A stretch of 62,378 bases of DNA from Methanosarcina sp. 2.H.T.1A.6 (GCF_000979455.1 NZ_JJOY01000039.1:1-62378); one strand, 5' to 3'; shown: positions 9,080 to 51,821, numbered from the stretch's first letter. Numbers and translations: made by a program. Notes: a model not told the origin generated them from the letters alone.

Positions 9080-11007
9080 AGGTAATCACCAAGGTTATAC
9101 TGTTTGGGCACAGCAGGCTTTTCTTTTCCTTTTTTATGGCTTTGTTTTACCGGTTTTCCGGCTCTATCCGGAGCCTGGGCTGGCTTTTCATCCGGGAACT
9201 TTTGATCCGCAGGCTTTTCGGTTTTGCCCTCTCCATCTTTTTCGGGACTTACTTCTCCCCCGGAGCGGGGAAGCTTTCCAGCCTCTACGTCTTCTGCTTC
9301 GGTTTTATTTCCGGCATATATCCCTAGCTCAGCTCTTTTTCCACCTTCGGAAGGGATTACTGGAGGGATTTCTACAGAGGTTCCGGGAGTTTCCTGCGAA
9401 ATCTCGGATGGGGAGGGGGCTTCAGCCAAAGAATTAGCAGCAGTATTGGGCGTTTCGATCTCTACGGATGCCCCTACAGATTCAGCATTTTCACATGAAC
9501 CGGCGGCTTCAAGTGATTCAGTATTTCCGCATATTACGGGGACATGAGGAGGTTCATGACCCTCAACAGGAGATTCACAGACCTTATCAAGAGATTCAGG
9601 ACTCTCATCAGAATCTTCAAAACTATTATTGAGAGATTCGGAGCTTTCAATTCTTGCAAAAGCCCTCAGGAATTTAGATTTTTCGGCAATTGCCGCCGCA
9701 AATTCAGCCCCTCCGGCGGACTCAGGATTTTCAACCGGTTCAGCCGCACCCACCGGTTTGAATTCTTCAGGCTCTCCAATCCTGACAGGGCTAACAGGGC
9801 TGGCAGAGCTGACCGGGATAACAGGGCTGACAGGAATCTCTATCCTGAAATTAGGGTCTTTGAAATCCAGTGCTTCAATCAATCCCGAAAGCCGGCTCTC
9901 TGTTTCTTCGTCCACCCTTGACCTTGACACGCCCGGGTTCCGGATAATCTCATCGACTATCAGCCCGCCGTCGTTTAAGCTCAACCTGTTGATTTCTTCG
10001 GCAACCGCATGGTCAGGGTCGGAAAATGCGACTTTCACAACCTCATCGAGGAGGGTCTCTTTTATCCTGAGGTCTTTGACCCTTGCCACCAGCACTCCTT
10101 TGCTCAACAGGTATTCTTCAATCTCACTGAAGGAAAGGACTGGACCTGAGTCTCCTGAGATGTCCAGGAACACAACAGAGTCCGGGAGTTCTTCGAGGTG
10201 CTCGTTAACGGCAGAATAAATCTGTTCATAAGGCTTTTCTTCCCCGTCAAGTTTTGCCGGAATGAACAGGAAATTTCGGGTAGGGATGGTCCTCCTGCTG
10301 ATTTCCAGCCCTTCCCCGGAAAGAGTGATAATATTGTAAGAACGGGGATCATTTTCGGATGCACTGTTGCGTTCGGTACTGCCCGGGTATGTAGCCCAGG
10401 TCTCGGTCTCCCCTACCTTTATTTTCTCGTACTTGTGGTAGTCCCCGAGGAGAATTGCATCAACCTTAAAAGGAAGGTTTTCAAGCACCTCGGCGCAGTC
10501 CCAGTCCGCATACGGAAAAGGCTGCACGGTCTGGTGCATTACAAGCAGGTTCCTGCAGTTTTCCGGCAGGGATTCCGGAACTTCAAACCCTGAATAATCG
10601 TAAAGAGGAATCTTTGACTTAGGGACGCTGTCTATCCCGTATATTGCTGTATCCCCTACCAGTTGGGGTGTTTTCCCGAGCCTTACCGCAAGCCCCATTT
10701 CCTCAAAGAGGTCCAGCCACTGGGTATTTTGCTTGCTCTCGTGGTTCCCGACAATTCCAAAAAAAGGTATGTTTGCAGCCTTCAACCGGAACAGGAGGTT
10801 CATCGTCTCAAGGAGATCTTCAAGAGTCGGGTTCCTGGAATCAAAAAGGTCCCCCGCATGCACGACAGCATCAATCTGCATGTCAACCGCGTCCTGAATG
10901 ACTACCTCAAAAGCCTTAAAAAAGTCCTGCCTCCGTACCTCGCTGTGGTACTGCCGGTATCCCAGGTGCGTGTCTGCTGTGTGGAGTATCCTTGTTTCCT
11001 GAACCAT
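9076..11007 (-). CDS. mre11: DNA double-strand break repair nuclease Mre11, with long acidic tail
   Basis: The N-terminal metallophosphoesterase carries ILHTADTHLGYRQYH, VVHAGDLFDSRNPT, GIVGNHES, VMHQTVQPF and LLGDYHKY. In the last motif, where many Mre11 proteins have G-H-x-H, the first His is Asp. The capping domain runs to about residue 380. Beyond it lie ~260 residues unlike the compact archaeal enzymes: a Pro/Val/Ser run (IPVSPVIPVSSASPVSPV), then Ser/Glu/Pro-rich segments with repeated ESPE, ESLE and ENAES motifs, ending in a basic KPVKQSHKKGKEKPAVPKQ and YNLGDYL. The extreme C-terminus may be the Rad50-binding helix and the linker disordered. It is the first gene of the mre11-rad50 operon. 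Confidence 0.94.
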   Translation of the reverse strand: MVQETRILHTADTHLGYRQYHSEVRRQDFFKAFEVVIQDAVDMQIDAVVHAGDLFDSRNPTLEDLLETMNLLFRLKAANIPFFGIVGNHESKQNTQWLDLFEEMGLAVRLGKTPQLVGDTAIYGIDSVPKSKIPLYDYSGFEVPESLPENCRNLLVMHQTVQPFPYADWDCAEVLENLPFKVDAILLGDYHKYEKIKVGETETWATYPGSTERNSASENDPRSYNIITLSGEGLEISRRTIPTRNFLFIPAKLDGEEKPYEQIYSAVNEHLEELPDSVVFLDISGDSGPVLSFSEIEEYLLSKGVLVARVKDLRIKETLLDEVVKVAFSDPDHAVAEEINRLSLNDGGLIVDEIIRNPGVSRSRVDEETESRLSGLIEALDFKDPNFRIEIPVSPVIPVSSASPVSPVRIGEPEEFKPVGAAEPVENPESAGGAEFAAAIAEKSKFLRAFARIESSESLNNSFEDSDESPESLDKVCESPVEGHEPPHVPVICGNTESLEAAGSCENAESVGASVEIETPNTAANSLAEAPSPSEISQETPGTSVEIPPVIPSEGGKRAELGIYAGNKTEAEDVEAGKLPRSGGEVSPEKDGEGKTEKPADQKFPDEKPAQAPDRAGKPVKQSHKKGKEKPAVPKQYNLGDYL

Positions 11008-29538: not shown

Positions 29539-30333
29539 TCATTTTTGATCTTTCAGGAATAATTTATTATCATGTTCTTCAATTACCCTGACAAAATTCC
29601 TGTCTGAGAGATCTTCTTTTCCGGACCAGAAGATCGCTTTGTGGTATTTCCACACTTTAGGGTCAAACTCGAGAATTCCAACGTGGAGCGTTAGTTCAAG
29701 CAGGAACCAGTAAGTTGCAGTCAGGTGAACCAGACGGATAAGGCCCAATGCGGATACGCTCAGGTAAGGTGCGAAGTATCCGGCAATGGAAATGATCCAC
29801 TGAGCCACAGGAAGCCCTAAAAGAGACCAGTTAAGGTTGTAAAGCACTATACCTGTGACAGCGATAAAGAAGATTGCCGTGCTTTCGATGATGATAAGTA
29901 GCTTGAGCATGGGGTGCAGTTTTGTTATGTAATGCCCTTCTTTTACATCGTAGATAGTAAATGCCGGATACTCGCCCCTGCCAAAGAAATTAAGGATAAT
30001 TGCCTTCAGACGTTTTGCATCCTCGGCCCCGAAAATGTAACTTTCAAAAAAATGGTTAAAGCGGATCTTTAGACTGCACGTTCCCAGGCACGAAAAGACA
30101 TTATACGGGACAAGAATCCAGTTTGCGACCAGGAAAAACGGAACTGAAATCATATGAAGTGTGCGGGCTGTATGGAACTCCATGAAGTCCCAGCCGAGAT
30201 AAATTTTAAGCCCGGTAACAATGAGGATCAGCATGGATAGAAGGTGAACAAGGTGTGTCACCCGTTCAAGCAACGTATAGCGCTCAACTACCAGACTGCC
30301 CTCAATACCCGGATTTCCTTCCTGTCCAGCCAT
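29539..30333 (-). CDS. vhxC: cytochrome b subunit of the second membrane hydrogenase
   Basis: 264 aa, five predicted membrane helices. This subunit anchors the hydrogenase dimer and passes electrons from the small-subunit clusters to methanophenazine through haem b. Candidate haem ligands, shared with VhtC, are in [26 protein letters not shown] and [14 protein letters not shown]. Relative to VhtC the C-terminus is shorter by a few residues and the loop after helix 2 has an added Cys pair ([10 protein letters not shown]). The gene follows vhxA by 14 bp. Confidence 0.9.
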
Positions 30334-30347
30334 ATTATCAACTCCGA

Positions 30348-32135
30348 TCAGACCACCCTGAACTGCCCTTTTTGCTGCCCTTTAAGGTCAATAGCATGAA
30401 TCGCGCAGGCTAGGCAGGGGTCATAAGAACGTGCCGTATGAAGGATACCAAGAGGATTGGTATAATCTACTCCAAGCGCGTTTTCTGCAACAGAAATCTT
30501 TGAGCCTAAAAGGACCTGCTCCACGGGACCCGGAATTCCAGCGGAGTTTCGCGGTGCCATATTCCAGGTACTCGGAACCACAGCCTGATATAGTGTAACT
30601 TTTGAGTCAGGCCCTGTTTTAATCCAGTGCCCGAGAGCTCCCCTCGGAGCTTCCCAGAGCCCCATGCCCTCCGAATCTTTTGCCATTGAAAGGTCGGTGG
30701 GGACCGCAAATTTCCCATTGGGGTTCAAATCCTCAGCCAGCCATTTAATGAGTTCGGAGGCAACCACCAGGATCTCCTGCAGCCGGGCAAGCATGCGCAG
30801 ATAGGTATTGGTAACCGGGTAACCCTTTTCCCGGAACAGGTCCGCAAAGCCCGTGATAAGAGGATCTTTCATGACAAGCATACGAGAGAGAGGCCCGACC
30901 TCGCAGGGAATCCCACCGTAGTGAGGGGCTTTTACCCAGGAATACCGGCTTTCAACCCCCCGGGAATAATCAATTTCATCGGGTTCCGGTTCCGGCTGAG
31001 TGGTTCCTTCCATAGGGTACCGGTCTGACTCGGTATCCACATAGAAGGAATGGGCAATACTCTCAGAAATTTTTCTATGATCGAACTTCTGAAGCTCAAG
31101 ATTTCCGTTCAGGAAACCCGAAGGAATGACCCTTGACTCAGGAGGGCTTGCGGGGTCATATCCATCTCCGAGTTCAGGCTTGAAGAACAGCCCGTAGGCG
31201 AGGAAACCGATCTTTGAGGGGTCGCTGTATCCTCCTATCCGGTCAAGTTTCATACTCACCGGAAGCCCCAGGACTTCCTCGCCTATGAGCTCAGAGCCGA
31301 AAGCCGCGTACAGCGGGACATCACCCCAGCCTGCCGCATAGGAAAAGTCATTTGAAACGAGAGAAGCATCCACAAGTTCCTGCAGGCGGTCAACCACGAA
31401 ACCTACAGCTTTTTGTGGGGAAGAGGCAAACCGGGTGTTTTCGACCCAGGTCTCAGGGGAAACTCCAAGAGCGATATCCTCGACGAAATCCATAAATTTC
31501 CAGTAATAAGAAGCAAGCTGCCCGATGTCCGCAGCGGTAGGCCCGTATGTCACACCACCAACATGTGCAACGACAGAATGGGGCATCTTTGCCCCAAAGA
31601 GGGAAATAGCTTCATGCAACCGCCGCTTTTCCCCCAGCGCAGCTACATACCCGCTTCCAACTGGAACGTCAACTCCATCGAGCCTGTAACTGACAGGTGC
31701 AAACCTTCCGAGAAGTTCGTCCCAGACAGCTTTTCCGGCATCTCCATAGTTTCCTAAAAGGGTCCTGTATGCGGGGTTTGCAAGGTCAGGACCCCAGAGT
31801 ACGTAGAAGTGAGTTGCGTGACTGGCCAGGAGGTTCAAAGACTGATGAATGTTGCGCATTACAAGGGCGTCTTTTGGAACTGCATCTGTGACCCCGAAGA
31901 GCTGGTCAAGGGCATTTGCCGCTGCAATGGAGTGAGTAGTCGGGCAGACTCCGCAGATCCTCTGGGTAAGTAGGGCAGCATCCCTTGGGTCCTGATTCTG
32001 GAGGAAACGTTCAAAGCCCCTGAGCATGAGCCCAATACTCTGAGCTTCGGTAACTATCCCTTCCTCATTTACCTGGGTAGTAATCCGGTAGTGCCCTTCA
32101 ATCCTGGTAAGCTGATCAACCGTAACCTCGACCAT
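30348..32135 (-). CDS. vhxA: [NiFe] hydrogenase large subunit, second copy
   Basis: 595 aa with a complete active site: N-terminal [12 protein letters not shown] (Cys about 61 and 64) and C-terminal DPCLACAIH (Cys 574 and 577), the four Ni ligands. Fifteen residues follow the His and would be removed by a maturation protease. It is about 60-65% identical to VhtA by eye, far more divergent than the nearly identical vho/vht pair reported for M. mazei, so I use the vhx name. No inactivating change is visible. The ATG directly abuts the stop of vhxG, so translation is probably coupled. vhxGAC lacks its own protease gene and would depend on VhtD or another. Confidence 0.93.
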
Positions 32136-33416
32136 TTACTCATCCCCCTGATCTTTTTTTGCGGTCTCACTTTTTTCTTCAGGCTTTTCTTCAGGCATTA
32201 CTTCCTCTTTTTCAGGCTTTTCTTCAGACTTTTTTTCCTTTTCTTCAGGCTGTTTTCCCTTTTCTTCAGGCTTTTCTTTGATGGCAATTCTCCGGACGGC
32301 ATGGGCGCCTACAGCAAGCAGGGAAGCCCCTATAGCAACTTTTGCGACGGTATCTATACTGGTGCCTACAATCCCCGCATCTTCAATTTCCTGGAAGAAG
32401 GGGCGTGAACTCTCAGGGAAACCCGGAGAGACACAGGAAATACAGGGAGACCCTGACTGAGGGCAAAGGCTGTGGTAACCGTTCCAGCGGCGGATAGCAC
32501 AATCCGCATGGGTGTATGGGGCCTTGCACCCCAGTTTCCAGAGGCACTTCGGGCCGCTGACTACAGTGTCAAACTCCCCTTTGTCATAGTAGCCCCTCCT
32601 CGGGCAGTTGTCATGGATAACGTGGTCTGGAGGGAAAAAGATCTTCGGACGCAGCCATTCATCAAGAACGTAGGGGAGGTCATCGGGAACTTTGATTTTC
32701 CCAAGCACAACTGCGGCAAGAGTGAGGAGCATCCAGTCCGGATGAGGAGGGCAGCCATTGATATTGATTACCGGTTTTTCAAGCCCGTACTCCGTAAGGA
32801 TTCCCCTGTCCCGGTCCTCCATGGTGAAGGCAACTCCCCTGAAGTCCATAAGGTCCCGGATCTCACTATCTGCGGAATTTACTCCGCCATTGGTTGCACA
32901 CTGTCCCACAGCCACGATGAAAGCAGCATTTTCTGCAGTCCGCCGGAAAATATCCTTGTAGCTCTTCCCACCCAGGAAGCAGTACTTTCCGGTGCCTTTC
33001 GGCCCGTTAGCAATCGCTCCTTCGGCAACAAGAATGTACCCTTTTTCCGCAATCACTTCTTCAAAAAGGATCTCGGAATTGAGTTCAGAAGTGCCTTCCA
33101 TTTTTCCGTCCACGTAAATCCCCTGCTGGCCGAGCAGGACTTCGTGGTACGCAAGCCGAAGGTTAAGGCGAGAGAATGCCTGAAGCACGTCAGGCTCACC
33201 TCCATTCAACAGAGAGATGGAACAGCCGGTACATTCCCCGCCGTGTAGCCAGACAATCCTGGTCTCCGCAAATTCCAGAGCCCGTACAATGTCGCCTCGA
33301 TAGGTTTGCAAAAACAAAGATGCTCCAAGAGCCCCAACGGCTTTAAGAAAGGTACGCCTATCCATCTTCATGAAATCCAGATTCTTGAACCTGTCAAGAT
33401 CCCCTTCCCCACTCAT
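32136..33416 (-). CDS. vhxG: [NiFe] hydrogenase small subunit, second copy, with charged tail
   Basis: 426 aa. The twin-arginine signal MDRRTFLKAVGALGASLFL (Arg 20-21) directs folded export. Iron-sulfur ligands match VhtG: GGECTGCSISLL, VGQCATNGGV, NGCPPHPDW, NCPRRGYYDKGEF, KLGCKAPYTHADCAIRRW and SPCISCVSPGFPESSRP. After the hydrophobic stretch near residues 350-375 (VAKVAIGASLLAVGAHAV) the protein continues for ~50 Lys/Glu/Pro residues (KEKPEEKGKQPEEKEKKSEE and similar) that VhtG lacks. A good ribosome site (GAGGGGTG) precedes the ATG. It is the first gene of the vhxGAC operon. Confidence 0.93.
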   Translation of the reverse strand: MSGEGDLDRFKNLDFMKMDRRTFLKAVGALGASLFLQTYRGDIVRALEFAETRIVWLHGGECTGCSISLLNGGEPDVLQAFSRLNLRLAYHEVLLGQQGIYVDGKMEGTSELNSEILFEEVIAEKGYILVAEGAIANGPKGTGKYCFLGGKSYKDIFRRTAENAAFIVAVGQCATNGGVNSADSEIRDLMDFRGVAFTMEDRDRGILTEYGLEKPVININGCPPHPDWMLLTLAAVVLGKIKVPDDLPYVLDEWLRPKIFFPPDHVIHDNCPRRGYYDKGEFDTVVSGPKCLWKLGCKAPYTHADCAIRRWNGYHSLCPQSGSPCISCVSPGFPESSRPFFQEIEDAGIVGTSIDTVAKVAIGASLLAVGAHAVRRIAIKEKPEEKGKQPEEKEKKSEEKPEKEEVMPEEKPEEKSETAKKDQGDE

Positions 33417-33460
33417 TCCACACCCCTCATGTAGAAATAGAATAATTCAGTGCAAAAAAT

Positions 33461-33474
33461 ATAGATAATATATC
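33461..33474 (-). promoter_or_regulatory. vhxG: possible TATA box of vhxGAC
   Basis: On the minus strand GATATATTATCTAT lies about 45-58 nt before the vhxG ATG. It has the right composition and place for an archaeal TATA element. No transcription start is known from sequence. Confidence 0.35.
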
Positions 33475-33528
33475 ATTAATAGGAGACCCAATTGATAAAA
33501 AAGTAACTCGAAAAATAAGTACCTATTA

Positions 33529-33560
33529 TTGATAAATTGACATATTGATAAGTTGACATA
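33529..33560. repeat. vhxG: 16-bp direct repeat upstream of vhxG
   Basis: TTGATAAATTGACATA is followed at once by TTGATAAGTTGACATA (one change). The pair lies between the vhtD stop and the vhxG promoter region and could be a regulator site or a short minisatellite. Confidence 0.6.
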
Positions 33561-33668
33561 TTCCCGAAAACACCCTGAAAATCGAATTTTACTCTCATAA
33601 AAGAAAAGCTGCTGAGAAAAAATAAAACAGAAAGAAGAATAACAAAAAAAAGAAAGAAGGACAATAAT

Positions 33669-34154
33669 TCAGATAAGCTCAGAGATTTCTTCCCTTATCA
33701 GTTTTATTGCATCATCTACAGCATTCAGGACTTCAGGACTGAGTTCCTGTGAGAGTTCAGTAGCTAATTCTCCAATCTCTATTCCTATTACCACAATTTC
33801 CGGAAGGGACTGCACCTGTTCTCCAATTCTCAACACATCGGTAATTGTGAGATCGTGCACCGAGACCAGGGTGTGTGGCTCAGTGCCTGTTATCAGGTCC
33901 CCGCCTTCGATACGGTGTACTGAACCTTTACGGCTGCCTGTAAGGACTGCATCGACTATAATGACTTTTCTCGCACCGTCAAGCAGGTTAAGGAGGTCAA
34001 GCCCGCAGACCCCCGCATCTACGATATCAAGGCCTTCAAGCCTTTCAAGTTCCGTTTTTTTAAGGGCTTCGATAATTTTCAGGCCGACGCCATCATCGCC
34101 CATTAGCGGGCTTCCGCAGCCCAGGACTCTTATAGGAGCGTGTAATATAGGCAT
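33669..34154 (-). CDS. vhtD: hydrogenase maturation endopeptidase
   Basis: 161 aa, a member of the HycI/HyaD/FrcD-type proteases that cut the C-terminal extension from the large subunit after Ni insertion. Conserved metal-binding positions are present: the GCGSPLMGDDGVGLKI opening (Asp/Glu ligand), VDAGVCGLDLL, IIVDAVLTGSRKGSV, and SVHDLTITD with the His. It is the last gene of vhtGACD, 139 bp after vhtC with a repeat-bearing spacer between them. It is the only such protease in the window, so it probably serves VhtA and possibly VhxA. Confidence 0.92.
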   Translation of the reverse strand: MPILHAPIRVLGCGSPLMGDDGVGLKIIEALKKTELERLEGLDIVDAGVCGLDLLNLLDGARKVIIVDAVLTGSRKGSVHRIEGGDLITGTEPHTLVSVHDLTITDVLRIGEQVQSLPEIVVIGIEIGELATELSQELSPEVLNAVDDAIKLIREEISELI

Positions 34155-34179
34155 ATTCTCACTTTATGAAGGTGTATAC

Positions 34180-34232
34180 AGATTTTACAGATTCTACAGA
34201 TTTTACAGGTTTCTACAGATTCTACAGGTTTT
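34180..34232. repeat. TTTTACAGATTCTACAG tandem repeats between vhtC and vhtD
   Basis: Variants of a 9-bp unit (GATTTTACA, GATTCTACA, GGTTTCTACA) recur about six times inside the vht operon, between vhtC and vhtD. They lie in the transcribed spacer. Confidence 0.8.
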
Positions 34233-34293
34233 TTCCGTGTTTTTTGAGTATGCCTACATTACTTTTCCCTTAATTTGATTGAATTCCGGGAAA

Positions 34294-35106
34294 TTACTCC
34301 TTTACAGCATCGGAAGACTTTTCGGGCGAATCGTGCCAGAGCTCACTGTCAGGAAGGTGTTTCGGGTTAGGTTTAACGATTTCCACATAGTGAGCATCTG
34401 AAAGGTCCTCTTTTCCGGACCAGAAGATAGCCTTGTAGTACTTCCAGACATGCGGGTCAAACTCAAGGATACCCACGTGGACAACCAGTTCAAAGACAAA
34501 CCAGTATGTCATGAGCAGGTGAAGAGATCTGAGGAACTGCAGGGAACTCATCCCTAATGCAGGTGCAACAAGGTCTCCTGCCGAAAGGATCCATGACCCG
34601 ATCGGGAGTCCGAAAAGCGACCAGTCAAGCCTGTAAATGACAATACCTGAAACTGCAATCACGAAGATGGCGGTGCCTTCGAGCACAATAAGGATCTTCA
34701 TTAAGGGGTGAAGTTTGGTTTTATAGTGTCCCGACACCTCATCATAAATGGTGAATGCGGGGTACTCGCCCTTTCCGAAGAAATTGAGAATTATTGCCTT
34801 CAGGCGCTTTGCGTCTTCAGGACCGAAAACATAATGGTCCATGAAATGTGCAAGTTTTTCCTGAACTCCACCTTCGCTTGAAGAGAAGATGTTGTACGGG
34901 ATAAGAATCCAGTTCACTGCAAGCAGAGCAGGAACCGTGATCATGTGAAGGGCGCGGGCATTGTGGAAACTCATAAAGTCCCAGCCTGCGTAGATTTTTA
35001 ACCCGGTAATGATGAGCACCAGCATCGAAATAGCGTGGATGGTATGGGCCGTCCTGTCAAGGACGGTATACCGCTCAACAACCATCGGGCTGTCTTTGGA
35101 TTTCAT
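34294..35106 (-). CDS. vhtC: cytochrome b subunit of methanophenazine-reducing hydrogenase
   Basis: 270 aa with five predicted membrane helices. It transfers electrons from VhtG clusters through haem b to methanophenazine, releasing protons outside and so contributing to the ion gradient. Candidate haem-ligand histidines are in [27 protein letters not shown] and [13 protein letters not shown]. It ends in a polar tail ([19 protein letters not shown]). It follows vhtA by 15 bp in the order G-A-C-D. Confidence 0.94.
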
Positions 35107-35121
35107 TTATGGGTCATCTCC

Positions 35122-36909
35122 TTATACTATTCTTAAAGTACGTGGAGCGTTTTTCCCGGTTAGGTCAATGGTGTGGACTGCGCATGAAACACACGGGTCA
35201 TAGGACCTACCGATATGGAGGATGTTAACAGGATTGGTGTAGTTGATATCAAGAGCATTGTCTACGGCATTGATTTTTGCCCCTATCAGAGCCTGCTCAA
35301 GAGGACCGGGTACGCCTGCTCCATCTCTCGGGGAGAGGTTCCAGGTGCTCGGAACTACAGGCTGGTAGGTGATAACCTTAGAGTTGCTGTCAGTGGAGAC
35401 CCAGTGACCGAGAGCACCACGTGGAGCTTCCCAGAGACCCATGCCTTCCGAATTCTTTGCCATTGAAAGGTCGGTGTCAACAGCAATCTTGCCGTTAGGG
35501 TCGTAATCGACAGTTACCCACTTAAGGAGCTCATTTGCGATAATTGCGGTTTCCTGGATACGAGCCATCATTCTTGTGTAAACGTTAGCTGCAGAGTAAC
35601 CTTTCTCGTTAAAGGCCAGAGCAAGTCCGGTCACAAGAGGTTCTTTAGCTGCAAGCATACGTGCAAGAGGCCCAACCTCACAGGGAGTTCCGTCATATCT
35701 CGGAGCCTTATTCCAGGTGTACCTGCTCTCGGAGCCCTGGTCAAAGCGGATTGCCTCAGGATCGGTAAACGGATTGGTTTCACCTTTTGAGGGGTGGAGG
35801 TCAGCTGTGTCATCATAGAAGGCGTGAGCAACGCTTTCAGTAATCTTGCTTGCATCAAAATTCTGATATTCGAGGCTTCCGGTCACAACACCTGAAGTCA
35901 GGAAGCGGTCTCCTGCAGGGCTGTTCGGATCATATCCGTCCCCATTCTCAGGTTTGTAGAACCCACCGTATGAAAGGAAGGCGATCTTTGAGGGGTCGCT
36001 ATATCCGCCTATTTTATCGTGCTTAAGGCTTGCAGGAAGACCAAGCAGAGTTTCTCCAACAAGTTCGGAACCAAAGGCTGCATAGAACTCCGCATCTCCC
36101 CAGCCTGCTTCCCTGGAGAAGTCATTTGAGGCTACGGATTTCTCAACAAGGCCTTTGAGGTGTTCAACCACGAAGCTTACTGCCTTCTGAGGGGAGCTTG
36201 CATTGTAAGTGTTTTCAATCCAGGTCTCGAATGGAACCTTTAAAGTGTAATTCGAAACGAAGTCCATGACCTGAAGATAATAAGAGGAAAGCTTGCCAAT
36301 ATCTGCCACGTTTGGCTTGTAGGTATATCCGCCCGGATAGGATGTGACCTGGTGGGGCATTTTTCCGCCGATTACTGCAATTGCTTCCTGAAGGCGTTTC
36401 TTTTCAGGAATCGCTGCAAGGTAGGAGGATCCTACAGGCACTGATTGTCCGTCAATCTTGTAGCTGATCGGGGCAAACCTGCCGACCATTTCTTTCCAGA
36501 CGGCGTTTCCGGTTTCCCCGAGGGGGGTAAGGACATCACGGTATGCAGGGTTTGCAAGGTCAGGGCCCCAGAGTATGTATATGTGGGTTGCATGGCTTGC
36601 AATGAAGTTTAAAGCCTGGTTAATGTTCCTTGCTACAAGTGCATCTTTTGGAATCGTATCAGCCACACCGAAGAGCTGGTCAAGGGCGTTGGCGGCTGTG
36701 AGGGAATGAGAAGTAGGACATACCCCGCAGATCCTCTGGACAAGAAGGGCTGCATCCCTTGGGTCTTGATTCTGCAGTATGCGTTCAAAGCCTCTGAACA
36801 TGAGGCAGGAACTCTGGGCATCAGTTATAACGCCCTCAGCATTTACTTCAGTGGACAGGCGAAGGTGACCTTCAATTCTTGTTAAGGGGTCGACTGTAAC
36901 GTTTACCAT
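35122..36909 (-). CDS. vhtA: methanophenazine-reducing [NiFe] hydrogenase large subunit
   Basis: 595 aa, catalytic subunit that oxidises H2 at the extracytoplasmic face. Ni ligands are in [13 protein letters not shown] (Cys 61, 64) and DPCVSCAVH (Cys 573, 576). The 16 residues after His 579 are the maturation peptide. Other large-subunit landmarks are [26 protein letters not shown] and [11 protein letters not shown]. Seven bases separate it from vhtG. It has no Tat signal of its own and rides out with VhtG. Confidence 0.95.
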
Positions 36910-36916
36910 TTTTTAC

Positions 36917-38095
36917 TCACTCTCCTTTCATTCTCCGAACAGCATGTACCCCTGCAACTACGGTAGCAGCACCGACTGCAGCTTTGGATAATGTGTCAAT
37001 ATTTGCCCCGAGAAGCACGCCCTTGTCTTCAGCTTCAACATAAAAAGGCCTTGATGAGTCAGGGAAGCCGGGTTCAACGCAGGCAATACAGGGAGAACCT
37101 GCCTGAGTACACATACTTACGGAACCATTCCATTTGCGAATTGCACAGTCTGCGTGAGAATAAGGAGCTTTACAGCCCAACTTCCAGAGGCACTTTTCTC
37201 CGCCAATCTGCTCATCGAACTCTCCACGGTCATAGTAGCCGCGGCGAGGGCAGTTTTCATGTACTGTGTGGTCGGTAGGGAAAAAGACCTTGGGCCTTCC
37301 GTACTGGTCAAGGATAGTTTCCAGGTCTTCTGGAATCTTGATCTTGCCAAGGATTACCGCACCTACGGTAAGGAGAATCCAGTCCGGGTGTGCAGGACAT
37401 CCAGGGATGTTAATTACGGGCTTGTGGATCCCAAGCTCTGTGAGCATGCCTTTTGAGCGATCTTCCTTTGTGAAAGCCACTCCCCTGTAATCCGTAACCT
37501 GGGAAACAGCGCTGTCAGCGCAGGCAATTCCCCCATAAGTGGCACAGGTTCCAACTGCAAGGATAGCGTTGGCACGTGTTGCAGCTTTTGCAAAGAGCTC
37601 TTTGAAAGTCCTGTTCCCTATAACGCAGTAGCGCCCCGAGCCATCCGGACCGTTTGCAATTGCGCCTTCCACGACAAGAATATAGTTGCCTTCTTCGATA
37701 AGTTCGTCAACGAGAAGCTCGGAGTTCAATTCAGAGGTGTTTACAGGCTCGCCATCGACAAATAGCCCCTGCTGGGCAAGAAGAGTTTCATGGTAAGCAA
37801 TGTTGACATTGAGTTTGCTGATTGCCTGGACAATATCAGGATTGCCTCCGTTTAAAATGGATTCGGAACAGCCGGTGCACTCAGCACCGTGAAGCCAGAT
37901 AATCTTTGTCTCTGCAAACTCAAGCGCACTTGCGATCTCTGTTTTATAGGTGCCAAGAAATGTAGTTGCGCCAAGCACGCCTACAGCCTTCATGAAAGTA
38001 CGCCGGTCTAGTTTTAAAAAATCTAAACTATCCAGTGTACGAATAAGATTTTTCATTCCAGTACTCATCTCTACCACATCTTGTTTTTTACCCAA
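36917..38095 (-). CDS. vhtG: methanophenazine-reducing [NiFe] hydrogenase small subunit
   Basis: 392 aa. A twin-arginine signal (LDRRTFMKAVGVLGATTFLG, Arg 31-32) sends the folded dimer across the membrane. Iron-sulfur ligands for proximal, medial and distal clusters are visible: GAECTGCSESIL, VGTCATYGGI, PGCPAHPDW, ENCPRRGYYDRGEF, EKCLWKLGCKAPYSHADC and SPCIACVEPGFPDSSRP. A C-terminal hydrophobic stretch (LSKAAVGAATVVAGVHAV) may help anchoring. The listed start is TTG; an ATG nine codons later is an alternative. First gene of vhtGACD and divergent from the hyp operon. Confidence 0.95.
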   Translation of the reverse strand: MGKKQDVVEMSTGMKNLIRTLDSLDFLKLDRRTFMKAVGVLGATTFLGTYKTEIASALEFAETKIIWLHGAECTGCSESILNGGNPDIVQAISKLNVNIAYHETLLAQQGLFVDGEPVNTSELNSELLVDELIEEGNYILVVEGAIANGPDGSGRYCVIGNRTFKELFAKAATRANAILAVGTCATYGGIACADSAVSQVTDYRGVAFTKEDRSKGMLTELGIHKPVINIPGCPAHPDWILLTVGAVILGKIKIPEDLETILDQYGRPKVFFPTDHTVHENCPRRGYYDRGEFDEQIGGEKCLWKLGCKAPYSHADCAIRKWNGSVSMCTQAGSPCIACVEPGFPDSSRPFYVEAEDKGVLLGANIDTLSKAAVGAATVVAGVHAVRRMKGE

Positions 38096-44586: not shown

Positions 44587-45366
44587 TTAGGCCTGGATAT
44601 TCTTTGGGTATACCATCATCAGATGGTCCATATAACCGACACTGCAAATGTCGTTAAATATAGTGCTCAGTAATTGCTCGGATACTACACTTTTCGGATT
44701 TCCTTTTGCGACCAGACCTCCCCGGTACATGACAACAACATCATCACAGAACCATGAGATATGGTTTGGATCATGGCTGCAGGCCAGTATGGTTGTCCCT
44801 TTCGCGGATATTTTCTTTAGAATGTCCCAGATCCGGATCTGATTGCAGAAGTCCAGAGCGGATGTAGGCTCGTCCAGCAGCATTAAAGGCGTATCCTGTG
44901 CCATAGCCCTTGCGATAAGCACGAGCTGGCGCTGACCACCGCTAAGCTGGTTGTAAGGCTTATCGGCGAGATGAGAGATCTCGAGCATTTCCATAGCTTC
45001 CCAGACCTTATTCCTGTCCTCCTCGGAAATGCCAAAGATGCCGCCCATGTGTGGTGTCCTGCCCATCAGCACGACTTCCTTGACAAGGTAAGGAAAGGGC
45101 GGTTTGTGTTCCTGGGGCACGTAGGCGACAAGTTTTGCCAGCTCCCCGATCTTCTTCTTCCTGACATCGCATCCGTCAACGGATATGCTGCCGCTATTGT
45201 ACTTAAGGAAGCTCATGCAGCACTTGAACAGGGTTGTCTTCCCTGAACCATTTGGCCCGAAAAGTCCACATAAAGAACCTTTCTCTACCCTGAATGAAAC
45301 CCCTTTGAATACAGGTACGCTGTTGTACCCAAAGCTGAGGTTATCTACTCTCAACATATAAATCAC
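44587..45366 (-). CDS. FecE/BtuD-type ABC transporter ATPase
   Basis: 259 aa with Walker A LFGPNGSGKTTLFK, Q-loop YVPQEHKPPF, signature LSGGQRQLVLIARA, Walker B PLMLLDEPTSALD and H-loop CSHDPNHI. It is the metal-chelate or corrinoid importer type. It overlaps the permease gene by 4 nt. It energises uptake with the FecCD permease and the lipoprotein receptors nearby. Confidence 0.93.
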   Translation of the reverse strand: MIYMLRVDNLSFGYNSVPVFKGVSFRVEKGSLCGLFGPNGSGKTTLFKCCMSFLKYNSGSISVDGCDVRKKKIGELAKLVAYVPQEHKPPFPYLVKEVVLMGRTPHMGGIFGISEEDRNKVWEAMEMLEISHLADKPYNQLSGGQRQLVLIARAMAQDTPLMLLDEPTSALDFCNQIRIWDILKKISAKGTTILACSHDPNHISWFCDDVVVMYRGGLVAKGNPKSVVSEQLLSTIFNDICSVGYMDHLMMVYPKNIQA

Positions 45367-46433
45367 CCAAAAATCTCCTTTTCTTTACTGCGCAGCAGAT
45401 ACACAAGGTAAGGTGCACCTACGATAGCAGTGATAATCCCGATAGGGATTTCTGCCGAAGTAAGAGTACGCGCAATCGTATCACAAAAAATAATATAAAC
45501 ACCCCCCATCAGTGCTGCGGTAGGTATGACAAAACGGTTATCCGGACCCTGGATCAGGCGAGCGGCATGGGGCATCATCAGACCGACCCATGCAATAATT
45601 CCGACTGAAGATACGCAGACGGCAGTCACCAGCGTGGCCAGCACAATGAAAATAAATTTAAAAACTTCCGGATTCACACCCATAGCCCGAGCTTCCTCAT
45701 CGCCCATGGAAAGGACGTTTAGTTTCCACCCGAAGAACCACATAATAGCTACGGATATTAACACAACAGGCACAGTTAGATACACATCATCCCATGTGGT
45801 ATAGTAGAAGCCACCCATCATCCAAAAGACAATTTCCCTCAATTGTGTGTCGTTTGAGAGGTATTTCATGATAGAGACGCACGCGGAAAATATCGAGCCT
45901 ATGATGACACCGGCGAGCACAAGCGTAACCACGGGCGTCTGTCCCCTGTTCCTTGCCAGTGTATATGCCAGTAATACGGAGAGCGAGGCAAATAGGAAAG
46001 CACCCAGCTGTATAGAAATAAAGATATGAGGATAAACGATTCCCAGAGCTGCACCAAAAGCCGCTCCCGAAGACACCCCAAGGATGTACGGCTCCACAAG
46101 AGGATTGTGGAAACATCCCTGATAAATCGACCCTGCCACAGAAAGCCCGATACCAACGGTTATAGCCATAATGATCCTCGGAAAACGGATAGTCCAGATA
46201 ATCGTGTTTTTCAGTTTATTCAGAGAATCCACATTATCCGGTGAAAACAGGTGAGTAGCGATGATAGAGTACACTTCCAGTATAGAAACATGATATGTCC
46301 CCAAACAGATTGTGATAATCCCACCTGCCACCATAACAACAGCGAGAAAAAGCATAATACACAATTTCCTCGTCTCAAAAAAATCGAGGGCGGGACGGGG
46401 TGATATTTTCACGTCAGTCGATACTTCTTCCAT
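45363..46433 (-). CDS. FecCD-type ABC transporter permease
   Basis: 356 aa with about ten membrane helices. Family landmarks are VGIGLSVAGSIYQGCFHNPL, EPYILGVSSGAAFGAALG, VVTLVLAGVIIGSI, and GIIAWVGLMMPHAARL, the loop that contacts the ATPase. The subfamily imports iron chelates, haem or cobalamin. It ends in SKEKEIFG. The receptor gene lies 9 bp upstream, giving the operon order receptor-permease-ATPase on the minus strand. Confidence 0.93.
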   Translation of the reverse strand: MEEVSTDVKISPRPALDFFETRKLCIMLFLAVVMVAGGIITICLGTYHVSILEVYSIIATHLFSPDNVDSLNKLKNTIIWTIRFPRIIMAITVGIGLSVAGSIYQGCFHNPLVEPYILGVSSGAAFGAALGIVYPHIFISIQLGAFLFASLSVLLAYTLARNRGQTPVVTLVLAGVIIGSIFSACVSIMKYLSNDTQLREIVFWMMGGFYYTTWDDVYLTVPVVLISVAIMWFFGWKLNVLSMGDEEARAMGVNPEVFKFIFIVLATLVTAVCVSSVGIIAWVGLMMPHAARLIQGPDNRFVIPTAALMGGVYIIFCDTIARTLTSAEIPIGIITAIVGAPYLVYLLRSKEKEIFG

Positions 46434-46442
46434 GATTTACAC

Positions 46443-47750
46443 CTAGAAATCAGACTCCACTGTCCAATCCAGCCACTGGTTTGAACGAAGTTCCTCTGCA
46501 GTTGTCCTGTTCACGCCATATACATCCTGGTAGAAATCAAGGGCAAACTCATGAACCTTGATATCGCTGAACAGGTCAGGATAACAGGCTTTGGCTATGA
46601 CCATCATATCAATAGGGTATTCTGTCCTGCGTGCACAGTTCATTGGCGTCCATGGCATGGCATACACCCGTTTGTTCAGGACTGCACGCATGTTCTGAAG
46701 ATTCTGATAATACGGCGCCTCATACAACTCGCGCGGCGGGTGGAATCCATTTGCAGTGGGCAAAAGTATGACATCCGGATCTAAAGCCATCACTTGTTCC
46801 GCATTTAATAGTTTACCTGAGCCTGTGTCACGGTACACATTTCTACCATTACATATATTTTCAATAATGTAAGATTCAGGCGTGTCAGTACCAGATACAG
46901 TCCCTGCCCCGCCAGATCTTCTGGCATTTGGAGACAAACCGATATAGAGTACACTACTCTTTTCATTGTCAGGTATGTCTCGGGTACGTTCCCGGATCAT
47001 CTTCTCGGTGCTTTCCAGGTAATCAGCCAGAACCATCACCTTCTGTTCTTTTCCAAACAACTGGCCAATCACGCGCATTTCATCTCTCATCGTTCCCAGG
47101 TCAGAATTTTGAAAATATGAAGGTGAATACAATACCACAAGTGGTATACCCAGAGACTCGATAGCTGATATAGTCTTCGTGATTTTTTCCTCATTACTGG
47201 TGCCGATTGTACAGTCCCCAACCCGCATGATAACAACATCGGGATTCACGTCTGCCAATGTCTCATAGCTGATTATGTTACCCTGGGGAGAGTTAATACA
47301 GGGCGTTTCATTCAACCATGGATGCAGGTATTTCATTGTATTCCATCCATGTACGTACGAATAATTACTTCCATATATCGTGGTGTATGAATATGAGTAG
47401 TCTCGTTTGAGTGACCATGACCCGATAGCCACGACTTTATCTATCTCGCTAAGATTCGTCAGGACACCTTCAACGAACCCGTCATCGATTGTAGCAATAC
47501 GCTGGATGTCCTTTGGCACTTTTACCTGCACGCCACGCATATCCGTCACGTAACGATATTGTTCATCAGGTGAGTCTGCTGTCGTTGATAAGTTTGCGGC
47601 AGTTGTTGTAATCGGTCCTGTCTTTTCTATGCACCCTTCTACTGATACTATAAGGAACACAATAAGTACACACAACATTAAACCCTTTTTAAAGAGAAAA
47701 CAACTCGACGGCTTGTTTATTCGATGATTATTGTTAGGATTATCGTTCAT
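46443..47750 (-). CDS. TroA/FecB-like substrate-binding lipoprotein 1
   Basis: 435 aa. A cytoplasmic N-terminus of ~25 residues (MNDNPNNNHRINKPSSCFLF) leads to a hydrophobic segment and lipobox SVEGC, so a membrane-tethered receptor. The mature part has the two-lobe fold: DMRGVQVKVPKDIQRIATID at the start and NPDVVIMRVGDCTIG in the lobe-1 end. A long backbone helix and YIENICNGRNVYRD come next. It ends with PWTPMNCARRTEYPIDMMVI and QWLDWTVESDF. The conserved Cys-Ala-Arg-Arg and Gly-Asp-Cys motifs also occur in the second receptor and may shape the ligand site. Ligand unknown. Confidence 0.88.
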   Translation of the reverse strand: MNDNPNNNHRINKPSSCFLFKKGLMLCVLIVFLIVSVEGCIEKTGPITTTAANLSTTADSPDEQYRYVTDMRGVQVKVPKDIQRIATIDDGFVEGVLTNLSEIDKVVAIGSWSLKRDYSYSYTTIYGSNYSYVHGWNTMKYLHPWLNETPCINSPQGNIISYETLADVNPDVVIMRVGDCTIGTSNEEKITKTISAIESLGIPLVVLYSPSYFQNSDLGTMRDEMRVIGQLFGKEQKVMVLADYLESTEKMIRERTRDIPDNEKSSVLYIGLSPNARRSGGAGTVSGTDTPESYIIENICNGRNVYRDTGSGKLLNAEQVMALDPDVILLPTANGFHPPRELYEAPYYQNLQNMRAVLNKRVYAMPWTPMNCARRTEYPIDMMVIAKACYPDLFSDIKVHEFALDFYQDVYGVNRTTAEELRSNQWLDWTVESDF

Positions 47751-47917
47751 ATACGACCACCGTAATAATAATTGATTGTTTTTTATTACATTTTACTACA
47801 TAATACTATCGAATTGGGTATTATAAATAAGATCATATAAGATCGTAACAGTTATTGTTAAAAATTAGACATTATATGCAAAAATAAGAAAGGACAGTTT
47901 AGTATAAAGGGTTAAAA
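47751..47917. promoter_or_regulatory. divergent promoter region of the uptake cluster
   Basis: This 167-bp AT-rich spacer separates the receptor-permease-ATPase operon (minus) from the thioredoxin-CcdA gene (plus). TATTATAAATAAG near 47819-47831 is TATA-like for either direction. A GATCATATAAGATCG near-palindrome lies at 47831-47846 and could be an operator. Confidence 0.4.
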
Positions 47918-49336
47918 ATGGTAGGATCTATAGATCATCGGTATTCCGGAAATCTAATGGAAGAAACAGTATGTGATCTATTCACATTTTTAATAATTAT
48001 TATTATAACTCTTACTGCTTTGCCTTCAGTCGCTTATGCGGATGATGTGAAACCTGTCACAGTTATATATCTCTATGATGAAAGCTGCCACCGGTGTACC
48101 GAAGTAATGCCAGTAGTCAGGCAGGCTGTTGAAGAAGCCCGCAAAGAAGACTTATCTGTTGATTATCAGGAAATCAGGGTCAATTCACAAAAAGGCGCAT
48201 CTTATGTAGATCGATATGGTATGACAGACATCCCGAATCTGATCATCGATAACCATACAATCATTGGTCCCTCAAACCTTGAGGGAGAGCACGGAACTGT
48301 TCTAAAGAATATTAAGGATACAATAGCGTCTTCTTATGGATATGCTTCGCCAGTGATCGTGCATACGACTGCAGTGAAAAAGAGTAAAAGCGACAGTAAT
48401 GTCACGGTAACCGTGTATATATCCAACCAGGAAAACACACCTATTAATGTCAGTCTTTCCGGAGGGCTGACAGAGGGCTCCCGGTTAGTTTCAGGGCAAT
48501 TTTTCTGGAGCGGACCATTGCAGCCGGGAGCTGAGGAAAAGGTCACATACGTGCTATCGGGAGGCAATACCTCTTACGTATCCCCATCTGCCGTATATTA
48601 CGAGGATGACAGTGGCAGTCACATTATCACAGACAGTTATGTGTCCGTCGGCACGATTCCAGTGTTCTCAGTCCCCATTGCGTTTGTATCCGGAGTCATG
48701 GCTGCATTTTCCCCGTGTATCCTCGCAGTCATGGCATATATGACCGCGCTGGCAGCTTCTGGAGAAAGACGGTACTTAATGCTGATTAATGTAATTGCGT
48801 TTTCTGCAGGGCTGCTCTTTATGTATGCACTGATAGGCATTTGCTTCTACAGGATCAGTACAACCATACCCTCCATGTATAGTCTTGCCAAAAATACAAT
48901 TATCGTTTCGATTCTCTTCATCGGCTCTACCATGATAATCAGGGAATTATTCCACTATGAGTACAGCTTCTCGGATTCAGGGTTTAAAAAGTTCGTTTCT
49001 TTGCTGCGGCCTTATAGCAAAATAAATATGGTTGGGTGCAGCTTTGCCATGGGGCTGGGATTCGGCCTGATTAAAATACCCTGCACTGGCGGACCATATC
49101 TAGCGATACTCGGCATGATGGCTGGCCAGAGAAGTTCATTTCAGGGATTATACTGCCTGATGGCTTACAATATAGGCGTCGTGTTACCGGTACTGAGTCT
49201 GGGGACGCTGCTCTCTTTAGGATTTTCCGCCCACGAGTTGGACATGATCAGAACACAACACCGGGCCGTCATAAATGTTTCAACTGGAATCACTCTCTTT
49301 ATTCTGGCCTCATTGCTGGCACTTAATGTAATATGA
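47918..49336 (+). CDS. thioredoxin-CcdA fusion (DsbD-like thiol-redox membrane protein)
   Basis: 472 aa. A signal/membrane segment (TFLIIIIITLTALPSVAYA) is followed by an extracytoplasmic thioredoxin-like domain with active site ESCHRC (Cys 57 and 60) and cis-Pro in MTDIPNLII. A beta-rich Ser/Thr/Asn domain (about 145-245) precedes six or more helices of the CcdA family. Those carry the two redox cysteines expected in the membrane: AFSPCILAVMAYM (about 267) and IKIPCTGGPYLAIL (about 389). The design would bring reducing equivalents from the cytoplasm to an outside thiol. Its place between the two receptors suggests reduction of a receptor, ligand or disulfide. Confidence 0.85.
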   Translation: MVGSIDHRYSGNLMEETVCDLFTFLIIIIITLTALPSVAYADDVKPVTVIYLYDESCHRCTEVMPVVRQAVEEARKEDLSVDYQEIRVNSQKGASYVDRYGMTDIPNLIIDNHTIIGPSNLEGEHGTVLKNIKDTIASSYGYASPVIVHTTAVKKSKSDSNVTVTVYISNQENTPINVSLSGGLTEGSRLVSGQFFWSGPLQPGAEEKVTYVLSGGNTSYVSPSAVYYEDDSGSHIITDSYVSVGTIPVFSVPIAFVSGVMAAFSPCILAVMAYMTALAASGERRYLMLINVIAFSAGLLFMYALIGICFYRISTTIPSMYSLAKNTIIVSILFIGSTMIIRELFHYEYSFSDSGFKKFVSLLRPYSKINMVGCSFAMGLGFGLIKIPCTGGPYLAILGMMAGQRSSFQGLYCLMAYNIGVVLPVLSLGTLLSLGFSAHELDMIRTQHRAVINVSTGITLFILASLLALNVI

Positions 49337-49693
49337 TCGATAGGTGATTACTACCATCACTGAAGTGACAGACATCTACCAGAATTCTAAAGCACATCAA
49401 TAAGGTAAAGGTTTCTAAAGACATGATAAGATCTTTTTTAATATTGATAACATCTAATAATATACATAACACAAAATAGACAAGTATATTAATAAGAAGT
49501 TAAATTAAAGTGCTACAAACTATTATTATCATTAATAGTTGTTTATGTAAATTAAAATATTGAATGCTGCGATTTTCCGACTTACACGTAAGATTTAGCA
49601 TAAAAACAGCACTTTCAAACGTATTGTTCCCTGGAAGGTTACAAAACGCTACAAATAATGATCAATCAGTAAACAACTGAAGTTGAGGTTTTT
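49337..49693. other. AT-rich spacer before receptor 2
   Basis: No gene is visible. AACAACTGAAGTTGAGG just before the next start supplies its ribosome site (TTGAGG). Confidence 0.5.
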
Positions 49694-50920
49694 ATGAATA
49701 AATTGATTGTTTGTATGTTTTTGATTTTACTCGTTAGTTTGCCTTTTTCCGGATGCACATCAGAAAAAGCCACTTTACCAGCAACTGACCCATCAACAAA
49801 CGATGAATCCAGCATTATCACGGATATGAGAGGTGTCCAGGTAAAAGTGCCGAAAAACATCACAAGAACCGCCGTGATAAGTGACGGCTTCGTCGAATGT
49901 GTAATGATCAGCCTGGGTGTCCAGGATAATATTGTGGCTGTTGGTACCACGATCACCCCTAATAATAAAGTAGAAATTCCGAGTGTCAAGGGAGAAAATA
50001 TTACGTATGAGAATGGCCAAAACACAATGCTTTACCTAGACCCTTCGATAAAAGATACAATCCGGTTAACGCCCCAACAGTACAACGTCATAAGCTTCGA
50101 AGCTCTTGCAAGTTCAGATCCTGATGTAATAATTCTCAGAGTAGGAGATTGTTCAGTCGGGTGGGACAACCGTGATACAATGAATAAAACAATCAATACG
50201 ATGGAATCACTTGGAATCCCTGTGATAGTCCTGTATTCACCTACATATTACTCAAACTCAGACCTATCTACCATAAGAGAAGAGATCAAAATTATCGGAC
50301 AAATTTTCGGTAAACAGGAGAAGGCTCTCGAGTTAGCTGATTACATCCAGAGCACGGAGAAGATGATATCGGACAGGACCAGGGATATACCTGAGACCGA
50401 CAAGCCTTCAGTATTATATTTAGGTCTTTCACCCAATGCCAGAAAAGCCGGAGGTTCAGGTCATTCATGGGGAATCGATACACCAGAATCGTACACTATC
50501 GAAGGCATTGTACATGCGAAGAATGCCTACAGGGATACTGGCACTGCAAAAATACTGAATGCCGAGCAGGTTCTTGCCATTGACCCTGATGTTATATTAC
50601 TGGCTACCTCATGGGGATACCATCCAGCCAGGGAACTTTACGAAGCGCCATACTACCAGAACCTGAATGAACTGAGCGCTATCAAGAACAAAAAAGTCTA
50701 TTCTATGCCGTGGACGCCCTCAAACTGCGCCCGTCGCCTGGAATACCCTATCGACCTGATGATAACAGCGAAGGCATGTTACCCGGAAAAATTCCAGGAT
50801 ATTAAAGTCCATGAATGGGTACTGGACTTCTACAAACAGGCATACAATGTCGATGACGAAACTGCGAGAGGTCTCAGGTCAGTACAGTGGCTCGACTGGA
50901 TGGAAGAGGAAGACTTCTGA
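49694..50920 (+). CDS. TroA/FecB-like substrate-binding lipoprotein 2
   Basis: 408 aa, paralogue of receptor 1 (about half identical by eye). Signal peptide and lipobox are FLILLVSLPFSGC. Shared stretches include DMRGVQVKVPKNITRTAVIS, VIILRVGDCSVGW, YLGLSPNARKAGGSGHSWG, PWTPSNCARRLEYPIDLMI and QWLDWMEEEDF. The Gly-Asp-Cys and Cys-Ala-Arg-Arg positions are kept. No second permease or ATPase accompanies it, so it probably feeds the same transporter with a different or modified ligand. Confidence 0.88.
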   Translation: MNKLIVCMFLILLVSLPFSGCTSEKATLPATDPSTNDESSIITDMRGVQVKVPKNITRTAVISDGFVECVMISLGVQDNIVAVGTTITPNNKVEIPSVKGENITYENGQNTMLYLDPSIKDTIRLTPQQYNVISFEALASSDPDVIILRVGDCSVGWDNRDTMNKTINTMESLGIPVIVLYSPTYYSNSDLSTIREEIKIIGQIFGKQEKALELADYIQSTEKMISDRTRDIPETDKPSVLYLGLSPNARKAGGSGHSWGIDTPESYTIEGIVHAKNAYRDTGTAKILNAEQVLAIDPDVILLATSWGYHPARELYEAPYYQNLNELSAIKNKKVYSMPWTPSNCARRLEYPIDLMITAKACYPEKFQDIKVHEWVLDFYKQAYNVDDETARGLRSVQWLDWMEEEDF

Positions 50921-50937
50921 GAATTGGGAAGAGAAGT

Positions 50938-50993
50938 GCGGAGAAAAATTTGAAAAGTTATTGAGGAGAAAAAAGTTATTGAGGAGAATTTTC
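50938..50993 (+). promoter_or_regulatory. duplicated ribosome-binding leader of the methyltransferase
   Basis: The string AAGTTATTGAGGAGAA occurs twice in direct succession (50955-50970 and 50973-50988), giving two strong GAGGAG Shine-Dalgarno sites. The second is correctly placed before the ATG at 50994. It may reflect slippage or serve to raise translation. Confidence 0.55.
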
Positions 50994-51821
50994 ATGATGA
51001 ATAACACTACAGACTATGGAGAGATCTGGAAAACGATGATGGCAGAGAGTAAGAAGACGAACTTTGAAAGTGGCAGATTCTGGACAATGGAAGAGGCAGT
51101 AAAATATGACACGCAGATCAAGATGGACAACTGGAGTTTTTCCAGAAACTTGATTAAACGGATTGATTTTACTCCGGATTCAAAAGTTCTGGATATCGGA
51201 GCTGGTCCCGGTACACTGACCATACCGCTCGCAGGCATGGTCAAGCACGTCACCGCCGTCGAGCCTTCAGATGGTATGTTATACTGCCTGAAAGAGAACA
51301 TCAAAACAAATGGGTTAAATAATGTTTCCTGGATCCAGAAGAGGTGGGAAGATGTAGATATCAAAGATCTGGACTCACCATACGATATAGTTATCGCCTC
51401 GTTTTCCCTGGCCATGCCGGACATCAGAGAGGCGGTGATTAAAATGAACGACATGTCCTCGAAATATGTCTACCTGAACTGGTTCGCAGGTATGCCGTCC
51501 TGGGAAAAAACGTATGCGGAAGCCTGGCAGAGGGTCCACGGTACTCCATATAATATCTACCCGCAGATTGACTGCATATATAAAGTGCTGTACGACATGG
51601 GGATATACCCGAACGTCACCGTGTACCCTGATTACTGGGAACTGATCTATCCGGAAATGGAAGCAGCAGTTAATCATTACAGACGGATTGTCAACGCGAC
51701 CACAACCGAACATGATGCAATACTACAAAAGTATATATCCGAAGCATTTTCCTGCGAGAACGGAGACATCAGGATGAAGGAAAAATCATACTCTGCCTGG
51801 CTTTGGTGGGAAAAGTCGTAA
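50994..51821 (+). CDS. class I SAM-dependent methyltransferase
   Basis: 275 aa from the ATG with GAGGAGAA 5-12 nt upstream; an in-frame extension inside the preceding gene is not preferred. The Rossmann core has motif I KVLDIGAGPGTLTIPLA, motif II VTAVEPSDGML, and DIVIASFSLAMPD as motif IV. The second half (NWFAGMPSWEKTYAEAWQ, IYPQIDCIYKVLYDMGIYPN) is substrate-specific and resembles methyltransferases often found next to archaeal metal-chelate importers. There is no signal peptide, so it acts in the cytoplasm, perhaps on the imported molecule. Substrate unknown. Confidence 0.8.
   Translation: MMNNTTDYGEIWKTMMAESKKTNFESGRFWTMEEAVKYDTQIKMDNWSFSRNLIKRIDFTPDSKVLDIGAGPGTLTIPLAGMVKHVTAVEPSDGMLYCLKENIKTNGLNNVSWIQKRWEDVDIKDLDSPYDIVIASFSLAMPDIREAVIKMNDMSSKYVYLNWFAGMPSWEKTYAEAWQRVHGTPYNIYPQIDCIYKVLYDMGIYPNVTVYPDYWELIYPEMEAAVNHYRRIVNATTTEHDAILQKYISEAFSCENGDIRMKEKSYSAWLWWEKS

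Follow-up and report, generated by a model that had tools for sequence, protein, structure and literature searches.

The stretch of DNA analysed here, called the window, comprises 62,378 nucleotides of a Methanosarcina-type genome (G000; 4.07 Mb in 54 contigs). Three genes form a compact run on its minus strand: the ABC ATPase of an importer (44587-45366; PF00005, 113 bits), a FecCD/BtuC-type permease (45363-46433; PF01032, 304 bits), which overlaps the start of the ATPase by 4 bp, and the lipoprotein receptor R1, a class III substrate-binding protein (46443-47750; PF01497, 48.2 bits). The plus strand carries a gene for a fusion of a secreted thioredoxin with a CcdA/DsbD membrane domain (Trx-CcdA; 47918-49336; PF02683, 37.5 bits, and PF13386), the R1 paralogue R2, which has no transporter of its own (49694-50920; PF01497, 62.4 bits), and a class I SAM methyltransferase of 275 amino acids (50994-51821; PF13649, 48.8 bits, and family alignments). 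A NikR-like operator, GTAATAA-N14-TTATTAC, which has no strand, is located in the region between R1 and Trx-CcdA (47762-47789). All genes of the cluster are intact and the Pfam profiles agree with each assignment, so that the gene set given in a preliminary description of the locus was recovered in full. A Peripla_BP_2 receptor, a FecCD permease and an ATPase are encoded together, as in chelate importers of the FecCD type. The curated families closest to the ATPase are BtuD, FecE and heme types, with every score far under the cut-off. Two tandem operons for membrane NiFe hydrogenases (G, A and C subunits) lie elsewhere in the window, at 29539-38095.

The open reading frame listed for the methyltransferase (336 amino acids, from 50811 inside R2) starts too early. 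A family alignment and a strong ribosome site place the start at Met 50994, 73 bp after R2. The plus-strand spacer between the two genes (50921-50993), read directly, contains a duplicated ribosome-site repeat of 17-18 bp, GTTATTGAGGAGAA; with this site and the start given by the alignment, R2 and the methyltransferase are probably co-transcribed.

In the Trx-CcdA fusion, the thioredoxin part, with CHRC at residues 57-60, stays below the Pfam cut-off (Thioredoxin_3, 19.2 vs 24.8 bits), as does the protein below that of the NCBIfam DsbD subfamily (21.8 of 330 bits). It has the features of a CcdA/DsbD thiol transporter, namely a DsbD_TM domain, two Cys residues in the membrane part (Cys267 and Cys389) and a CxxC motif outside. 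A CcdA membrane domain also passes electrons to an outside thioredoxin in the DsbD/CcdA-CcmG pathway of M. acetivorans (MA4254-MA4255), but ccmG and ccdA are two separate, adjacent genes there, whereas in the window the two parts are fused into one protein that is encoded beside receptors (PMC9084895).

The receptor family and its cysteine pair

R1 and R2 each have an archaeal lipobox Cys, and both retain the Gly-Asp-Cys and Cys-Ala-Arg-Arg motifs (GDC and NCARR) that had been noticed before. An alignment and a tree put R2 at ~55% identity to R1. The AlphaFold model of R1 (pLDDT 94.5) has its best PDB fold matches in 4ovk, 2etv, MolA (3psa), YiuA and nickel-bound CeuE (4ls3/4inp). In this model, the conserved Cys residues 119 and 311 each lie in a loop after a strand and, by homology, each lobe has one. 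Heme importers of the Isd/Hmu kind take an axial heme ligand from either lobe of the receptor, and for comparison with these the observation is limited to the one conserved Cys predicted in a loop of each lobe. In an alignment of 168 receptors, Cys occupies both positions in 88 (GDC or GSC, and NC) and a single Cys is rare, these counts ignoring kinship among the sequences; Ser/Ser, Trp/Trp and Thr/Ala are the other pairs observed. Such joint change of the two positions is the pattern that a ligand-contacting pair would show. R1 and R2 grouped with bacterial receptors and away from most methanogen receptors in a tree that was midpoint-rooted and has long branches.

The full order R1, Trx-CcdA, R2, methyltransferase is found in five Methanosarcina genomes (G000, G132, G133, G137 and G141) and is kept at 52-93% identity, which makes the cluster more than a product of chance. 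Within the order, 18 of 150 genomes contain the receptor (E<=1e-30). A receptor fragment with an in-frame TAA is present near an intact methyltransferase gene in G133 (L111, ~8025-8675; G133:C1:4828024-4828674).

A scan of GTDB genomes for the receptor family yielded 76 loci in methanogens, Desulfobacterota, Deferribacterota, Campylobacterota and Spirochaetota. The archaeal loci are those of Methanosarcina, Methanolobus, Methanococcoides, Methanothrix, Methanoculleus, Methanoregula, Methanogenium and Methanospirillum, and bacterial ones occur in Mailhella, Desulfovibrio, Desulfobacterium, Desulfocicer, Mucispirillum, Helicobacter turcicus, Campylobacter and Breznakiella. The hydrogenase maturation genes nearby had earlier been taken as a clue to a Ni, Fe or Co complex. 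This neighbourhood is not conserved: hyp or carbonic anhydrase genes flank the cluster in only three of the five syntenic genomes, and hyp or hydrogenase genes are absent from all 76 other receptor loci. Neighbours were counted at the 70 loci with a called receptor, where a permease is present in 58 and an ATPase in 56. Some receptor operons of Gram-negatives adjoin genes for TonB receptors or ExbB/ExbD/TonB, and the cargo should therefore be a chelate. Proteins with an S-layer domain (PF07752) are repeatedly encoded beside importer operons (L097, L121, L125, L126, L130 and L210).

Methyltransferases beside FecCD importers

Family alignments assign the methyltransferase to a distinct, aromatic-rich class I family. 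Its model (pLDDT 90.2) matches generic small-molecule methyltransferases in the PDB, and its fold neighbours include the thiol methyltransferases TmtA and GtmA and a histamine N-methyltransferase, at ~14-17% identity. No match to nicotianamine synthase/CntL (NAS) was present among the Pfam, NCBIfam and PDB fold matches listed. Co-occurrence of methyltransferase and receptor, a check put forward in the preliminary description, was indeed observed: this family is encoded at 31 of the 70 receptor loci, on the same strand and within 3 kb in 29 of them. Relatives occur in 71 of the 150 genomes of the order overall and in all 18 that have the receptor, in 17 of these at <=10 kb from it. A second methyltransferase family (MT21) is found at 7/70 receptor loci, and the family of the window occurs together with FmdE at only three. 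At one locus of a relative, a methyltransferase gene of the window's family contains one in-frame TAG, possibly encoding pyrrolysine (L098, ~8268-9092).

The association extends to FecCD importers at large. In the genome of the window, a PF13649-type methyltransferase lies within 5 kb of 6/7 FecCD loci (chance 2e-5), and in six genomes a methyltransferase was found within 6 kb of 20 out of 36 such loci vs 4.7 expected (p ~2e-9, a value that treats the loci as independent while a few are adjoining systems). Since several different methyltransferase families recur at these positions, we infer that the shared theme is the methylation of imported ligands and not one particular enzyme. Literature searches found no description of FecCD importers being linked to methyltransferases in methanogens, and nothing on this gene set or on FecCD with a methyltransferase in Methanosarcina. 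Two divergent FecCD systems with a different methyltransferase each lie side by side in L107 (own genome, C52:12000-31999), one of them having a CooC-like ATPase and a receptor of the Ser/Ser type. Another FecCD operon of the same genome, which also contains a further methyltransferase, encodes a radical SAM enzyme of 593 amino acids with a C-terminal Peripla_BP_2-like domain (C11; L210:10381-12159). SAM-binding proteins of the TrmO/TsaA family are encoded beside FmdE and NikA-like genes in methanogens (L149:1-573 and L205:13201-13743).

NikR-type sites and nickel-related neighbours

The published consensus for delta-proteobacterial NikR, GTGTTAC-[N13/14]-GTAACAC, which also occurs with reversed orientation of the half-sites (PMC545781), was searched unchanged. 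When 0-1 mismatch is allowed, this consensus lies next to the start of receptor/FmdE operons at 13 loci from the bacterial groups Desulfovibrionaceae and Deferribacterota (L135, L136, L141, L144, L147, L148, L156, L161, L163, L164, L181, L199 and L201; perfect in L136, L141, L181, L199 and L201). In an archaeon, Methanolobus vulcani, it precedes FmdE (L165). A shuffled control preserving two-base composition gave ~2 sites per 1.18 Mb, counted at any place. Softer NikR-type sites were observed in archaea before FmdE (L100, L104 and L127) and before a methyltransferase of the window's family (L118). NikR sites are also present at loci with Thr/Ala receptors, which lack the Cys pair. The receptor cysteines are thus not needed for nickel, and the idea of the pair as a mark of nickel specificity is weakened.

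In the window, the strict consensus has no site above chance. The degenerate pattern GTARYA-N16-TRYTAC has its sole exact match in these 62 kb at 47762-47789, ~12 bp upstream of the start of R1, the expected number of 0.06 being optimistic because the pattern was composed after inspection of relatives. Two matches are present in the whole genome, the second not beside an obvious nickel gene. The equivalent position matches the degenerate operator in G132, G133 and Methanosarcina UBA10923, and only degenerate versions are kept in G141 and G137, i.e., in two of the five syntenic genomes. Three NikR genes (PF08753) are present in the genome of the window; no exact match to the operator pattern was seen near NikR genes of relatives. 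Upstream boxes of the E. coli-type NikR, Fur, Zur or H. pylori-type NikR kind did not exceed chance. A conserved motif upstream of R2 (GTGCTACAAAT) was considered as an operator and rejected, as it is a half-site at best and has no partner at the right spacing.

FmdE genes (PF02663) are found at 19 and NikB genes at 7 of the 70 receptor loci. For FmdE, most genes of which adjoin metal transporters, a site occupied by both Zn and Ni has been reported in a crystal (PMC2954224). The same association of FmdE with a transporter is seen here, tied to one receptor family, but the window itself is without FmdE; regulation, the receptor family and the link to a methyltransferase were not met in the accessible part of that work. 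A CooC-like ATPase, with the nickel ATPase of CODH, CooC (3kje), as its best PDB match (3.8e-18), is encoded at 10/70 loci, always on the same strand and within 3 kb of the receptor (median gap, 263 bp). In Methanothrix, the operons interleave at least four receptors, a permease, an ATPase, FmdE, NikABC-like genes, CooC and up to three methyltransferase families, and a CobN-like gene lies nearby. In Breznakiella homolactica, a NifH-like gene has as neighbours the genes for the receptor, NikB/NikC and a CooC-like ATPase (L169:5822-6592).

A candidate nickel-chelate importer and its alternatives

Methanogens have a high need for nickel, which is used in F430, CODH and hydrogenases and is present at nanomolar concentrations in nature. 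To our knowledge, their nickel transporters are mostly unknown. In a 2025 study, candidates were only suggested, on the basis of proteomics (PMC12350162). As judged from sequence, the cluster described here is probably a high-affinity uptake system of the FecCD type for nickel chelates under NikR-type control, to which we assign a probability of roughly two in three. That nickel is what the system imports in this genome is inferred from the NikR-type sites, CooC and FmdE, the latter two of which add independent support, and not from the hydrogenase neighbours. The earlier suggestion of an imported Ni, Fe or Co chelate is upheld as far as import of a metal chelate is concerned, and nickel has become the clearly preferred metal; its argument from the hydrogenase neighbourhood has to be abandoned. 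The CobN-like neighbours in Methanothrix, which are also compatible with a tetrapyrrole cargo, count against this reading.

R1 and R2 would be membrane-anchored receptors catching nickel bound to organic ligands, R1 forming the importer with the permease and the ATPase while R2 would feed the same permease as a second receptor. The two cysteines, predicted in a loop of each lobe, may line or gate the cleft and recognise a particular type of nickel ligand. Once inside the cell, nickel could be passed to chaperones, CooC being the one seen in relatives, that serve CODH, hydrogenase and F430. The most likely target of the methyltransferase that is paired with R2 would be the ligand taken up, and its S- or N-methylation might release the nickel or mark the spent ligand. 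Trx-CcdA may be an addition peculiar to this lineage, providing exported thiols with electrons. What the methyltransferase and Trx-CcdA act on is the speculative part of this model. The closest known counterparts are the CeuE-FecDE nickel/cobalt importers of H. mustelae and H. pylori, which likewise combine a class III receptor, a FecCD-type permease and an ATPase for nickel, and the fold of nickel-bound CeuE is a structural neighbour of R1, but receptor identity is only ~17%. We know of no methyltransferase, CooC, FmdE or second receptor in that Helicobacter system.

In the pathway of the preliminary description, Trx-CcdA would reduce a metal complex with thiol ligands outside the cell, and this complex would be imported and then S-methylated in the cytoplasm. 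The gene set is syntenic in the five Methanosarcina, and TmtA and GtmA are fold neighbours of the methyltransferase over its full length, albeit within a generic class I fold (~14% identity). Together with receptors, Trx-CcdA was found only in these five genomes and at one Methanoculleus locus, and most loci that combine receptor and methyltransferase are without it (it is present in 1/70 loci of the GTDB scan). Rare co-occurrence, which had been named as evidence against the proposal, was thus found for Trx-CcdA and not for the methyltransferase (31/70). The Methanoculleus fusion, the sole clear case outside Methanosarcina, directly follows two receptors and CooC, as the pathway would have it, but no receptor there carries the Cys pair. 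Keeping receptor cysteines reduced is therefore not a general role of Trx-CcdA, and its candidacy as their reductant is weakened. An obligatory reduction step outside the cell is not supported by this distribution and, Trx-CcdA being rare, the sequence "reduced outside, methylated inside" is unproven and on the whole unlikely.

A lower probability still is given to salvage of a nickel or other metal tetrapyrrole, such as F430 or a heme breakdown product, with a CobN-like protein as dechelatase and modification of the macrocycle by the methyltransferase. CobN-like genes (PF02514) beside the operons in four Methanothrix loci, heme-binding class III proteins among the structural neighbours of R1, and a nearby CooC that would take the freed nickel all fit such a role. 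CobN is limited to that one genus, however, synthesis of F430 is not known from the gut bacteria that have NikR-type sites, and the ATPase stays under the cut-off of the heme transporter equivalog (195.7 of 261 bits).

We see little room for salvage of corrinoids (vitamin B12) by a relative of BtuFCD, with the methyltransferase acting on the corrinoid. Permease, ATPase and receptor share the fold classes of BtuFCD, the nearest curated models are BtuC and a corrinoid ATPase, and CpaM and CbiT are among the best NCBIfam matches of the methyltransferase, but the scores are far under the cut-offs (BtuC, 283 of 461 bits; ATPase, 221 of 537; CpaM equivalog, 48 of 180). None of the 22 bacterial loci searched has its operon under a cobalamin riboswitch, the sole one found (L160) being located beyond an opposite-strand gene and before the next gene; NikR-type operators are present instead. 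An equally slim chance is accorded to detoxification, by the methyltransferase, of metal(loid)s entering through a promiscuous importer. The recurrence of several methyltransferase families beside FecCD importers would suit it, and arsenite methyltransferase is the nearest family of the unrelated enzyme at the sister system L107, but the methyltransferase of the window lacks the conserved cysteines of the ArsM kind and no ArsM model is among the families listed for it. Import of molybdate or tungstate, despite MolA (3psa) as a top structural neighbour of R1 and the naming of FmdE after the operon of the molybdenum formylmethanofuran dehydrogenase, is very improbable in view of the NikR-type control sites, the linkage to CooC and the TonB receptors beside Gram-negative operons, which suggest a chelate.

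Under the nickel-chelate reading, the cluster is most likely new as a variant, i.e., a FecCD-class nickel-chelate importer with NikR-type control and a receptor-methyltransferase pairing. A tentative extension, clearly less likely than not, is that receptor-paired cytoplasmic methyltransferases of anaerobes methylate the nickel ligand, thereby ending its grip and making uptake irreversible, and that Methanosarcina adds a thiol-reducing line outside the cell in the form of Trx-CcdA.

In conclusion, the locus offers a specific and testable candidate for a nickel importer, with operator-like evidence, that would be common to methanogens, sulfate reducers and gut bacteria. Related systems appear to be under nickel-type genetic control in distant bacteria of gut and sediment. 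The link between FecCD importers and methyltransferases, which seems general in methanogens, implies that imported ligands undergo a chemical step.
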